Part shown: piece after piece, positions 27,424 through 61,683 of the stretch
Layout of the letters: each line of letters begins with the position of its first letter
How positions within the stretch are numbered: position 1 is the stretch's first letter
Assembly (NCBI RefSeq): GCF_900102745.1
Contig: NZ_FMZF01000006.1
Span: 217,559-281,558 of the forward strand
From: Geodermatophilus telluris
Lineage (GTDB): Bacteria > Actinomycetota > Actinomycetes > Mycobacteriales > Geodermatophilaceae
DNA length: 64,000 bases
Direction: 5' to 3'
Translations under genes and position numbers: made by a program
Notes under the pieces: generated by a model
Told to the model about the DNA's origin: nothing
Database searches by the model: none
Seen by the model: the letters and a program-made list of their open reading frames with translations, nothing else

Positions 27424-31227
<3,804 letters not shown>

Positions 31228-56625: not shown

Positions 56626-56710
56626 GTCCGGGTGGCGGAATGGCAGACGCGCTAGCTTGAGGTGCTAGTGCCCTTTATCGGGCGTGGGGGTTCAAGTCCC
56701 CCCTCGGACA
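56626..56710 (+). tRNA. tRNA-Leu (anticodon GAG)
   Basis: Acceptor GTCCGGG pairs with CTCGGAC (one G-T). A D-arm follows, then anticodon stem CTAGC/GCTAG around loop TTGAGGT, a long variable arm GCCC/GGGC typical of class II tRNAs and a T-arm GGGGG/CCCCC with TTCAAGT. The 3' CCA is not encoded. A -10-like TAAGCT lies at 56607-56612. Confidence 0.95.
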
Positions 56711-56912: not shown

Positions 56913-59447
56913 TCACCGGACTGCCGAGCGGGCCGACGACGGAGCGAGCTCCGCCCTCGGCAGCCGGGGGGCGAGGAAGCGGGCGGTCTGGCTCGCCGGC
57001 GTGGTGGCCACCTGTTCCGGCGTGCCGGCGGCCACGATCCTGCCGCCCTGGTCACCCGCTCCGGGACCCAGGTCGATGACCCAGTCGGCGTCGGCGACGA
57101 CGTCCATGTCGTGCTCCACCACCACCACGGTGTTGCCCGCGTCGACGAGCTGGTGCAGCTGGCGCACCAGCAGTTCCACGTCAGCGGGGTGCAGCCCGGT
57201 GGTCGGCTCGTCGAGGACGTACAGCGTGTGCCCCCGTCGGGCCCGTTGCAGCTCGCTGGCCAGCTTCACCCGCTGCGCCTCGCCGCCGGACAGCTCCGTC
57301 GCCGGTTGTCCGAGGCGGAGGTAGCCCAGACCGACCTCCTGCAGCACGCGCAGGCTCCTGGCCACCGGCGCGAGGTCGGCGAGGAAGTCCGTGGCCGCGT
57401 CGACGGTCAGGTCGAGCACCTCGGCGATGTTCTTGCCGCGGTGCGTGATCTCCAGCGTCTCGGGGTCGTAGCGCGCACCGTGGCAGGTCGGGCAGGGCGA
57501 GTACGTCCCGGGGAGGAAGAGCAGTTCCACGGTCACGAAGCCCTCGCCCTGACACGTCGGGCAGCGCCCCTCGGCCACGTTGAAGGAGAACCGCCCGGCG
57601 CCGTAGCCGCGCCTGCGGGCCTCCTCGGTGGCCGCGAAGAGCTTGCGCACCGCGTCGAAGAGCCCGGTGTAGGTGGCCAGGTTGGACCGGGGGGTCCGGC
57701 CGATGGCCTTCTGGTCGACGCGCACCAGACGGTCGACGGCCGCGGGCCCCTCGACCTGCACCGTCACCCCCACGGTGTCCTGGACGACGTCGTCCGGGTC
57801 GCCGGTCGGGTCGTCACCGGCGTCGCCCTCGCCGTCCGCGGCCGTCGCGGGTGAGCCGAGCTGCCGGGAGACGACGTCGGCCAGCACCTGGCTGACCAGC
57901 GTCGACTTGCCCGAGCCGGAGACGCCGGTGACCGCGGTGAGGACCCCGAGCGGGAACTCCGCCTCGACGTCGCGCAGGTTGTGCCGGTCGATGCTCCCCA
58001 GGTGCAGCTGCCCCGCGGGCTGCCGTCGCGGCCGACCGACCGGCGGCTCCCGGTCGAAGAGGAAGCGCCGGGTGACCGAGGCCTCCACGTGGGACAGGCC
58101 GGCGACGGGCCCGCTGTAGAGGACGCGGCCGCCCCGCTCACCTGCCATCGGGCCGACGTCGACGATCCAGTCGGCGCGGTGGGCCAGCGCCATGTCGTGC
58201 TCGATGACGAACAACGAGTTGCCGGCCGCGGTCAGCTGGTCGAGGACCCTCAACAGTGGTTCGGCGTCGGCCGGGTGCAGCCCCGCGGACGGCTCGTCCA
58301 GGACGTACACCACGCCGAACAGCCCCGACCGCAGCTGGGTCGCGATCCGCAGCCGCTGCAGCTCGCCCGGCGACAGGGTCGGGGTCGTCCGGTCCAGGCT
58401 GAGGTAACCGAGGCCCAACGTGGTGAGCACCTCGATCCGGCCGAGGAGGTCCGCCGTGATCCGCGCCGCGACGTCGGTCGCCTGCGGTGCCTGGCGGAGC
58501 GTCTCGACGAGCGCGGTCAGCGGCAGGGCCGCCAGCTCGGCGATGTTCCGGCCGCCGACGGTGACGGCCAGGGACTCGGGCCGCAGCCGGGTGCCCGAGC
58601 AGACCGGACAGGTCGAGGTCCGCACGAACCGCAGGACCCGCTGCCGCATGGTCGGGCTCTTGGTGTTGGCCAGGGTGTGCAGCACGTAGGCCCGCGCGCC
58701 GGTGTACCGGCCCTGGTAGTCGCGCTGGACCTGACCCACCCCGCGGACGGGGCGCACGGTGACCTCCGGCTGCTCGTCGGTGAACAGGATCCAGTCGCGC
58801 TCGGCCTGTGGCAGGTCCCGCCACGGCCGGTCGATGTCGTGGCCGAGCTCGACCAGGATGTCGCGCAGGTTCTTGCCGTGCCAGGCGCCCGGCCAGGCGG
58901 CGATCGCGCCGTCCCGGATGCTGAGCGATGCATCCGGGACCAGGCTGTCCTCGGTCACCAGGTGGACCCTGCCCAGACCGGAGCACTCGGGGCAGGCGCC
59001 GGCGGCGGTGTTGGGCGAGAAGGCGTCGGAGTCCAGCCGACCGGTCGACCCCGGCGGGTGGGTGCCGGTGCGCGAGAACAGCATCCGCAGCGAGTTGGAC
59101 AGCGTCGTCACGGTGCCGACGGTGGACCGGCTGCTGGGGGTGCCCCGGCTCTGCTGCAGCGCCACCGCCGGCGGCAGCCCGGTGATCTCGTCGACGACGG
59201 GTGCGCCGACCTGGTGGATGAGCCGCCGGGCGTACGGGGCCACGGACTCGAAGTACCGGCGCTGCGCCTCCGCGTAGATCGTGCCGAAGGCCAGCGAGGA
59301 CTTCCCGGATCCGGAGACGCCGGTGAAGACGACCAGGGCGTCCCTCGGCACGTGGACGTCGACGTTGCGCAGGTTGTGCTCGCGGGCGCCGCGCACCCGG
59401 ACGAACGGGTCCGTCGGCGAGGACGCGCGGCCCGGTTCGTCGATCAC
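56913..59447 (-). CDS. UvrA-like ABC ATPase (short UvrA paralogue)
   Basis: This 844-residue protein has two ABC modules, each with G-V-S-G-S-G-K-S; signatures are L-S-P-G-E-L-Q-R (first, SPGE variant) and L-S-G-G-E-A-Q-R (second). Zinc modules include C-P-E-C, C-P-V-C and C-P-T-C. It is about 100 residues shorter than housekeeping UvrA (roughly 950), like UvrA2 paralogues linked to DNA-damage tolerance or drug resistance. The GTG at 59447 gives a start shortly before the first ATPase. No UvrB/UvrC genes are near. It is divergent from a cobalamin-type MerR regulator. Confidence 0.9.
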
Positions 59448-59785
59448 GGCTCCAGCCTGACCTGCGCCCGGGCCGGAGGGGCACCCGGGGCACACCCGGT
59501 CCCGCCGGCGTTGCCCGGACCGTCGCTGCGGGCACCGAGCGGGACGTTCCCCGAGCCGGCGCTGCCGGCCGGGCAGCGCGGGGTCACCCGCCGGCTCCTC
59601 GCTCGCCCAGCGCGCGGGCGGCATCGGCGACGTCCTCCGCGGTGATCGTGGTGACGTCAGCACGGATCCGGGGGCGCCCGCGTCGCGGGAGACCGGGGCG
59701 AGGAGCGTCGCGCTGCTGACGCCGACCCGGTGCTGCACCTCCCGGGACACTCGCCCTCAGCGACGAAGCAGGGGACGATTCCGGG
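59448..59785. other. Divergent intergenic region with possible gene remnant
   Basis: This stretch separates the UvrA-like and MerR genes. The minus strand holds a coding-like segment ending at a TGA (59584-59586) that reads ...V-T-T-I-T-A-E-D-V-A-D-A-A-R-A-L-G-E-R. Coding-like sequence in a different frame precedes it, compatible with a frameshifted gene remnant of unknown family. I found no clear operator palindrome. Confidence 0.3.
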
Positions 59786-60817
59786 GTGGCGCGGCCGCCC
59801 GAGCAGTCCAGCGCGGACCCGCGGCTGAGCGTCGCCGTGGTGGCCCGGCGACTGGGCGTTGCGCCGACGACGCTGCGGTCCTGGGACCGCCGCTACGGCC
59901 TCGGCCCATCCGACCGCCGGCCCGGCCAACACCGCAGCTACACCAGTGAGGACGTCGCCCGGCTCGAGGCGGTCCGGCTGCTGCTGCTGGAGGGAGCCAC
60001 CGTCGCCGAGGCGGTGCGTCTGACGCGAAGCGCCACGGACACCCCACACGGAGCGGAGGTCGGGGCCGACGCGCCCACCGCCGTCCTTCCCCGCCCCTCA
60101 CCGCCGTCGTGGCCCGCGCGCCTCCGGCGGTTGCATGCCTCGACACGTCAGATGGACGCCGACCGCGTCGTCGCCGTGCTCGACCAGGCCGTCGACGCGC
60201 ACGGCGTGACCGCGACCTGGGACCACCTGCTGCGGCCGGCACTCGCCGCGCTGGGCGAACAGTGGAGGAGCGACGAGCGGTGCATCGCCGAGGAACACCT
60301 GCTCAGCGAGTGCGCGACCCGGCTGTTCCACCAACTGGTGGGGGCACGCCCCGTCACCGCCCGGCGCCCGGTGCTGTTGCTCAGCGCATCGGCCGAAGGT
60401 CATGTCCTGCCCCTGCACGCACTCGCAGCGGCACTGGCCGAGCAGGGGGCGCCGAGTCGGCTGCTCGGCTCCACGCCCACGGCGGCCGCGCTGGCGGCGA
60501 TCCGACGGATCCATCCGTCGGCGGTCGTCATCTGGGCCCAGGCGTCGGAGAACGCGACCATCGACGTCTTCACCCGATTGCCCCGGATCCGTGGAGGACT
60601 GCAGACCCTGGCGGCCGGCCCCGGGTGGAGCACCGTCCCCGTACCGCCGGGCGTCGCACGCGCGAACAGCTTGCAGACGTCCCTGGACCTGCTCGGAGAC
60701 ACCGCTCGAGGGCGACGCGCCCCCGCACGCCGCGGCGCGTCGCCGCTACGACCGGTGCCGCCGGCACCGCGACCGGGACGACCGGCACCACCCGGGGACG
60801 ACCGGAGCCCGGAGTAG
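59786..60817 (+). CDS. MerR-family regulator with cobalamin-binding domain (CarH/LitR-like)
   Basis: The 343-residue protein has a MerR winged helix (residues 13-80, S-V-A-V-V-A-R-R-L-G-V-A). A four-helix segment follows with the W-x9-E-H signature (Trp160, Glu170, His171), then a B12-type Rossmann domain with S-A-S-A-E-G-H-V-L-P-L. His206 lies exactly 46 residues after the Trp, as I recall for the lower axial ligand of Thermus CarH (Trp131, His177). Arg161 replaces the CarH His132 thought to make the light-state bis-His adduct. The Pro/Arg tail is probably disordered. It is probably an adenosylcobalamin-dependent, possibly light-sensitive repressor. Confidence 0.82.
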   Translation: MARPPEQSSADPRLSVAVVARRLGVAPTTLRSWDRRYGLGPSDRRPGQHRSYTSEDVARLEAVRLLLLEGATVAEAVRLTRSATDTPHGAEVGADAPTAVLPRPSPPSWPARLRRLHASTRQMDADRVVAVLDQAVDAHGVTATWDHLLRPALAALGEQWRSDERCIAEEHLLSECATRLFHQLVGARPVTARRPVLLLSASAEGHVLPLHALAAALAEQGAPSRLLGSTPTAAALAAIRRIHPSAVVIWAQASENATIDVFTRLPRIRGGLQTLAAGPGWSTVPVPPGVARANSLQTSLDLLGDTARGRRAPARRGASPLRPVPPAPRPGRPAPPGDDRSPE

Positions 60818-60884
60818 CCCGGCGGGCGGAGGTCTCCCGGAACGGCGGGTTGCCGAACAGGACACTCGCGTTGGCGAAGGACAG

Positions 60885-61110
60885 GCCTCGGCCCGCTCGT
60901 GGAGTCGGCGCCAGCAGGTCCAGCCCGAGCCGCAGCCGAGCTCGGTCAGGTGCTTGGTCCAGCCGTGCCGGTGCCGAGCACGAAGACGATGCTCTCGAGC
61001 AGGTCGCGGTCGGAGGTTCGCGGTCTACCGGTGCGGCCGCGAACGGCCGGCTTGCCCGGTGGATCAGCGGCTCGACCCGTGCTCACAGCTCGCCACTGAT
61101 CAGCGCGGCG
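60885..61110 (-). pseudogene. IS5-family transposase N-terminal relic
   Basis: On the minus strand, L-I-S-G-E-L-stop-A-R-V-E-P-L-I matches the start of IS5-type transposases with a TGA in place of the conserved Trp. After a frameshift near 61045 the sequence reads S-D-R-D-L-L-E-S-I-V-F-V-L-G-T-G. It continues W-T-K-H-L-T-E-L-G-C-G-S-G-W-T-C-W-R-R-L, a clear DUF4096-type core. The catalytic C-terminal part is absent. No terminal inverted repeats were recognised. It is a decayed fragment marking past insertion. Confidence 0.75.
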
Positions 61111-61683
61111 GCGGGGAAGACGCCGAGGAGCTCAGGGTCCGCACCCGCGCCGAGGCATGTCCGACCGGCAGGACCTGAGGACCCACTTCGGCAACGTCCT
61201 CCACGCACCGGATGACGGCTCGACGCCAGCCGTCGAGTCGTGTGCGGGTGTACCGAGTCGCTCCTCGGACCCCTCACCGCCCCTCAGGGGCCGTCCCTCA
61301 CCGCAGCACCGACCCGCAGGGTGCGCTGACGGCTGCCGCCTGCGGCGGAGCCGGGGGTGCTCGCCGACGCGGGGTCGGACCAGACCGGTGCGACGGCGCT
61401 CCGCCGCACCTGTCCGGCACCACGGCCGGCAGGCTCCCCACTCCGCCGACCCCCTGCCGCCGGCTCCAGCCCTCCTGGGAACGACGGCTGCGACGAGCGG
61501 TCCGGGCGAGGGCCCGGGTGCGACCGAGCGCTCGGGGCCGTCTCGTCCGGCGTCCGCAGCTGCACTGTCCTGCCTGCGCCGGCCTGGTCGTTGCTGCACC
61601 ATCCACGGGAAGATCCCGAGGGACGTGCCCACCTGACCGGACGGTCGGCCGGCACGCCGTGTGCGAGGAGGTCACGTGGGGCG
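61111..61683. other. Non-coding or degraded stretch
   Basis: No convincing gene is present. Open frames overlap on both strands without ribosome sites or recognisable domains. A short minus-strand segment near 61160-61240 (R-L-D-G-W-R-R-A-V-I-R-C-V-E-D-V) looks coding-like but is isolated. With the transposase relic beside it, this is best read as eroded sequence. Confidence 0.4.

Follow-up and report, generated by a model that had tools for sequence, protein, structure and literature searches.

Arginine at the light-state histidine position of a CarH-like MerR regulator in Geodermatophilus telluris

Introduction

In CarH, His132, which directly follows a signature tryptophan, is thought to form a bis-His cobalamin adduct after exposure to light. 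A CarH-like protein of Geodermatophilus telluris has an arginine at this place, which raises the question of whether a regulator of this kind can still be a light sensor and, if so, whether this particular copy is likely to act as one. A sequence-only reading of the DNA had proposed that the protein may sense the level of adenosylcobalamin (AdoCbl) rather than light, or else may use another photoproduct. The window analysed here, the whole stretch of 64,000 nucleotides, contains the gene and its surroundings, and we compared both with homologs and their neighbourhoods in related genomes and on plasmids.

A CarH-like protein with a divergent Rossmann half

The gene lies on the forward strand (59786..60817), begins with a GTG codon and encodes 343 residues; the features described within it are all on the same strand. 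Its open reading frame, Pfam and NCBIfam searches, alignment and a tree identify the product as a CarH-like MerR regulator of an actinobacterial group, which we call the HxLP subgroup. The N terminus carries a MerR-type helix-turn-helix DNA-binding domain (residues 15-81, 59828..60028; Pfam MerR_1, E 1.3e-14), as CarH and class I LitR do, followed by a B12-binding_2 four-helix bundle (residues 114-182, 60125..60331; PF02607, E 4.2e-10). The Rossmann B12-binding family PF02310 has no match in the 343 residues by Pfam at E 0.001. By sequence, the best-scoring solved relatives are Thermus CarH and CtMerR, and the NCBIfam CarH equivalog NF052513 gives 76.3 bits against a cut-off of 400. Two AlphaFold predictions have mean pLDDT values of 50.5 and 46.2, too low to judge by.

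Motif by motif, the protein agrees with published definitions in part. Wx9EH, named as defining for CarH and class I LitR in the cited section of PMC8156234, is present as W160-x9-E170-H171 (Trp160, 60263..60265, the counterpart of CarH Trp131 by alignment; Glu170-His171, 60293..60298). The B12 motif, written in the section of PMC9304148 drawn on here as D/ExHx2G/P, then SxT/V, then GG, begins as E204-G-H206-V-L-P209, and its HxLP portion (60401..60412) runs from His206, the lower axial histidine (His177 in Thermus thermophilus CarH, TtCarH), to Pro209. The proline is allowed because this wording has G/P at the motif glycine; the older wording of PMC8156234, with Gly only, would leave the protein out. 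At the following x41 SxT/V the window protein reads A251-Q-A253 by spacing, or W250-A-Q by alignment to TtCarH Ser222, with Trp250 (60533..60535) at the serine position, and the place of GG is taken by A277-G278-P279-G280, overlapping a GPGW (residues 278-281, 60617..60628) at the classic GG region. The light-responsive CBD signature from SignatureFinder (PMC11796333) is represented by GxxW and EH (G157-E-Q-W160; E170-H171), while its GxxH and GxxxP are replaced by A203-E-G-H206 and by G-S-T-P, one residue short. The traits of the HxLP subgroup, namely HxLP, Trp at the motif serine and GPGW, are all present. Since SxT/V, GG, GxxH and GxxxP are missing and the equivalog score is 76 bits against 400, we describe the protein as CarH-like rather than as a CarH.

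Among the closest known systems, CtMerR (PDB 8JBS/8JBT) shares with the window protein the MerR plus cobalamin module, Wx9EH, the lower histidine and an arginine right after the tryptophan; it differs in a DxHxxA lower motif, a retained GxxxP and a light response that has been shown experimentally. CarH of T. thermophilus (PDB 5C8D, 5C8E, 5C8F) has the same domain order, and its W131, E141, H142 and H177 have counterparts in the window protein, whereas the residues at His132, Gly180, Ser222 and one Gly of GG differ. Moreover, Thermus carH adjoins phytoene synthase and lies near phr, unlike the window gene.

Arg161 occupies a variable position

Whether Arg161 (codon AGG, 60266..60268) is truly the counterpart of His132 was examined by local alignment to full-length Thermus HB27 CarH (L132; W131-H132, E141-H142, H177) under three matrices and three gap settings. 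R161 pairs with H132 without a gap in 9/9 settings, and W160/W131, E170/E141, H171/H142 and H206/H177 are likewise paired in all nine. The correspondence from which the sequence-only reading started is thus correct, and no other histidine occupies the site under any of these settings.

Across relatives, the histidine turns out not to be the rule. Homologs were gathered from genomes of the window's own genus, family and order as a selection, in which stretches were taken for stronger matches and weak HTH-only and several partial matches were left out. The alignment had 69 rows, or 68 once a misaligned frame (L107) was dropped (L049, of 19 residues, had been dropped earlier); less the window protein and two PDB chains, it holds 65 homologs, and 47 of them keep the tryptophan. 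None of these 47 has His next to it. The 36 that lack the Gly of HxxG have Ala (13), Gln (6), Arg (5), Glu (4), Pro (2), Val (2) and Ser, Asn, Leu and Thr (1 each), the five Arg rows being near-identical and worth about one event; the 11 with HxxG have Gln (6), Ala (2) and Met, Thr and Ile (1 each). The single row with His in this column is itself without the tryptophan.

Plasmid loci give a similar count. His occurs only in the three Thermus loci among the 14 that are readable, the others having Glu (5), Ala (3), Thr (1), Gln (1) and Arg (1). The records read were 9/9 non-Thermus, 3/5 Streptomyces and 3/33 Thermus; one Caballeronia record has three places, one of which was read, and a Gemmatirosa locus (L139) with no readable motif stands outside the 14. 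By its title, a 2016 paper on LitR reportedly describes the histidine as 'semi-conserved'. Overall the site is semi-conserved, since the histidine is absent from the Trp-bearing rows of our mostly actinobacterial homolog sample and is carried by 'many' myxobacterial CarH proteins according to the cited section of PMC9304148.

Light responses without the histidine

Proteins with other residues at this site can respond to light. CtMerR (PDB 8JBS), with Arg at the His132 position, responds to green light, its cobalamin domain changes in solution from tetramer to monomer in the light, and its crystal after anaerobic illumination shows a water-mediated Glu contact but not the bis-His state, the cobalamin being in the aquo/hydroxo form (PMC11796333). 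Two other photoreceptors have Gln and Tyr at this site (PMC11796333). Furthermore, a Streptomyces relative with a LitR-like gene arrangement has Glu at the Arg161 position, and the LitR of S. coelicolor is described as a B12-based light sensor in the part of PMC12705666 cited here. The suggestion of another photoproduct therefore has a precedent in CtMerR, but the arginine is no argument for sensing AdoCbl level over light, and that half of the earlier proposal is unsupported by this residue.

In favour of a sensor of AdoCbl level that is blind to light, the AdoCbl-cap residues are present in the window protein without the light-state histidine. Moreover, PMC10442372 reports that H132A Thermus CarH remains mostly tetrameric in the light, and thus a protein that relies on the histidine can be affected by losing it. 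The same source cites an earlier report (Jost 2015) in which H132A CarH disassembles; it also describes a light spectrum of H132A that is still of the hydroxocobalamin type, photolysis being possible without the histidine. With these data and the monomerisation of the Arg-bearing CtMerR domain standing against it, we regard a light-blind sensor as highly improbable. There is nothing unusual in itself about Arg161 at this variable position, because relatives differ there and one that carries Arg is light-responsive. By analogy with CtMerR, the absence of this histidine should not be equated with the absence of a light response.

The HxLP subgroup and its cofactor

The 54 homologs without HxxG and the window protein form a set of 55 with an SH-aLRT value of 99, in a quick tree that has SH-aLRT support only and carries a long-branch warning; the window protein itself sits on a long branch without a close partner. 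Among the 54 other members, the B12-motif Gly is Pro (Pro209) in 50, the lower histidine (His206) is kept in 46 and lost in eight, and the capping tryptophan is missing in 18. The Trp at the motif serine (Trp250) occurs in 52/52 members with a letter there (2 gaps), and the GG region is mostly G-P-G-W, its last residue (Trp281) again found in 52/52 (2 gaps). The Gly of GxxH is replaced by another residue in 49 of the 69 aligned rows.

Changes of this kind could mean that the protein is a B12-independent regulator, which has kept the fold and lost the cofactor, like CarA or class II LitR, and which is controlled by a partner or oligomerises without ligand. Such a regulator would account for the missing PF02310 match, for Trp and Ala-Gly at the B12-motif Ser and GG, and for subgroup members that have lost the lower histidine or the tryptophan; class II LitR, as described in the cited section of PMC9758184, retains the helical B12 domain alone and acts together with a LOV protein. 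However, Trp160, Glu170, His171 and His206 are all retained in the window protein, whereas CarA is without the Trp and flanking residues in the account given by the section of PMC9304148 used here. In addition, two Streptomyces HxLP proteins (L129, L130) match PF02310 above its cut-off, and another two members of the subgroup (L037, L035) match it only below. Loss of the cofactor is possible, but we think it somewhat unlikely.

Two sets of homologs depart from CarH in their own ways, and not all members resemble a B12 protein. Ten carotenoid-linked homologs (L035, L036, L092, L111, L113-L116, L118, L122) have His exactly at the capping-Trp site and keep EH and the lower histidine, and their cofactor state could be different. 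Five near-identical groEL-linked homologs (L117, L119, L121, L123, L126) have Arg after the Trp, but their lower His is replaced by Asp and the His of EH by Tyr, and so, by these residues, they are probably not cobalamin-binding.

Neighbourhoods of the homologs

Neighbouring genes were read over about 8 kb on each side where the contig allowed, and over less for seven loci with short flanks (L022, L023, L025-L027, L029, L030), so that an empty neighbourhood there means little. By the genes in the stretch, 20 of the 65 homologs are linked to carotenoid genes, 6 to rhodopsin and 18 to groEL or guaB, and 21 to none of these. The rhodopsin-linked genes (L038, L041, L044, L045, L046, L047, the last three from the window's own genus) lie about 1 kb from the rhodopsin gene, and 6/6 of their products keep Wx9EH and the lower histidine. 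These proteins also share HxLP, Trp250 and GPGW with the window protein; they differ from it in the Ala or Glu after the Trp and in the adjoining rhodopsin gene, and are 38-42% identical to it. A BCD-type (retinal-forming) gene is present in 5/6 rhodopsin loci by protein clustering and in 3/6 by a stricter search; family names of neighbours were taken from representatives, with Pfam confirming rhodopsin and BCD in one representative each. The dropped row L107 also has a rhodopsin gene, about 3.5 kb off. B12-based light control of rhodopsin genes is possible; a literature search for a rhodopsin-CarH link with cobalamin binding in Actinobacteria found none, and one could still be published.

The Streptomyces plasmid relatives (L128-L130) resemble the window protein in HxLP, Trp at the motif serine and GPGW, and differ from it in a Glu after the Trp and one extra residue between Trp and EH. 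The HxLP gene of the Streptomyces atratus plasmid (L130) has an ECF-type sigma gene on one side and carotenoid genes on the other, like litS-litR, and from this gene arrangement we infer that the Streptomyces plasmid relatives are LitR orthologs.

The window copy lies in a rearranged place

The window gene has no rhodopsin, carotenoid or groEL neighbour; it is flanked by a conserved uvrA-like segment on one side and by a transposase remnant on the other. The former encodes a divergent UvrA-like protein of 844 residues (56913..59447, - strand), which is conserved in congeners without an adjoining CarH-like gene. Five congeners carry this gene at 94-96% identity, and at least 13 of 81 genomes, counting that of the window, have a match of E 1e-200 or better. 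Around nine uvrA-like loci, tblastn with E up to 1 over the flanks that were read found no CarH-like gene, only short pieces (best E 0.007). The uvrA-like gene was accordingly rejected as an established partner, its congener loci being conserved without a CarH-like gene in these flanks.

Synteny with one congener (G001) stops at 59748, 38 bases ahead of the start codon, which leaves a stretch at 59749..59785 between its end and the GTG; this junction was not found in congeners. In another congener (G006), the genes further downstream and the uvrA-like gene are on separate contigs, and the 12.5 kb read holds no CarH-like gene. Downstream of the window gene is a broken IS4/5-type transposase remnant (60881..61210, - strand), of which one of three frame pieces matches DUF4096 by Pfam (E 0.0016, below its cut-off) and the rest was recognised by eye; similar stretches recur many times across the genus, mostly 74-82% identical among the matches listed. 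Strong matches along most of the CarH-like protein (E 1e-37 or better) occur in 3 of 25 congeners searched, all of the rhodopsin-linked type.

The gene has a GC3 of 0.857, whereas 36 genes of the window average 0.985 (sd 0.017, minimum 0.927), a contrast that is overstated because these genes come from a GC3-scoring caller that favours high values and missed the CarH-like and TetR genes. GC3 falls to 0.698 over the last 43 residues, and the C-terminal tail is low-complexity. In other genomes, the 8 homologs measured have values of 0.873 to 0.970, and the TetR-like gene downstream has a similarly low GC3 (0.849-0.877); by composition alone, therefore, the CarH-like gene does not stand out. Junction, remnant and GC3 together suggest that the window copy is a recent arrival or under relaxed constraint. 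One may go further and argue that the gene has been moved, lacks a functional promoter or target and is decaying into a pseudogene, which would fit the end of synteny just before the start codon, the transposase remnant, the low GC3 of gene and tail, and the few congeners with a strong match. Nevertheless, the frame runs uninterrupted through the entire length of the domains, with the functional residues preserved, and we hold this explanation to be distinctly unlikely.

No RNA element was found at the site by Rfam, which at gathering thresholds finds only a tRNA gene in the window (56626-56710, + strand). Several short GC-rich direct and inverted matches in 59400-59840 were considered as operator repeats and are indistinguishable from chance. 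Elsewhere, the host genome encodes a rhodopsin, on another contig, together with a CobA/CobO/BtuR adenosyltransferase family protein and several B12-binding proteins, one of them inside the window; a scan of genome contigs gave one distant locus. The genome's best B12-binding match (G000:C4:246236-246511) lies in a large ORF at window positions 27424-31227, which is probably MetH.

Discussion

We put at about one half the probability that the window protein is a CarH/LitR-like MerR regulator, from an actinobacterial subgroup without the light-state histidine, that binds AdoCbl and responds to light without a bis-His state. In the dark, His206 would be the lower ligand of the AdoCbl cobalt, the adenosyl group would be capped by Trp160 and Glu170, and the protein would oligomerise on DNA and repress. 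Light would cleave the Co-C bond and yield aquo/hydroxocobalamin with no bis-His adduct, as in CtMerR, whereupon the oligomer may loosen and DNA binding be lost. This reading is preferred because Wx9EH and the lower histidine are intact, because CtMerR is light-responsive with Arg and His is found in 0/47 Trp-bearing homologs at residue 161, because rhodopsin-linked members keep the motifs, 20/65 homologs have a carotenoid gene and L130 has a litS-litR-like locus, and because the host encodes an adenosyltransferase family protein and B12-binding proteins. Against it stand the changes of the Rossmann half (no PF02310, Trp250 for Ser222, Ala-Gly for GG, no GxxH or GxxxP) with the low equivalog score, the subgroup members without the lower histidine (8/54) or the tryptophan (18/54), and, for the window copy, its long branch, GC3, low-complexity tail and a junction absent in congeners. 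Since the window copy sits at a rearranged site, its own activity is uncertain.

A bolder proposal, very unlikely in our estimate, would set the HxLP subgroup apart as a separate class of light regulators that use cobalamin, in which the near-invariant W250 and W281 rebuild the pocket for the cobalamin tail, no upper His is used, the light state is aquo-cobalamin, and actinobacterial rhodopsin/retinal and carotenoid genes are controlled; the window copy would then have moved beside the uvrA-like gene and brought it under light control.

For the family, loss of light sensing should not be predicted from Arg replacing His132. The published light-response signature would miss many such proteins, although a good part of them adjoin rhodopsin or carotenoid genes, and the departure of the Rossmann half, common to the actinobacterial subgroup, is more informative than Arg161.
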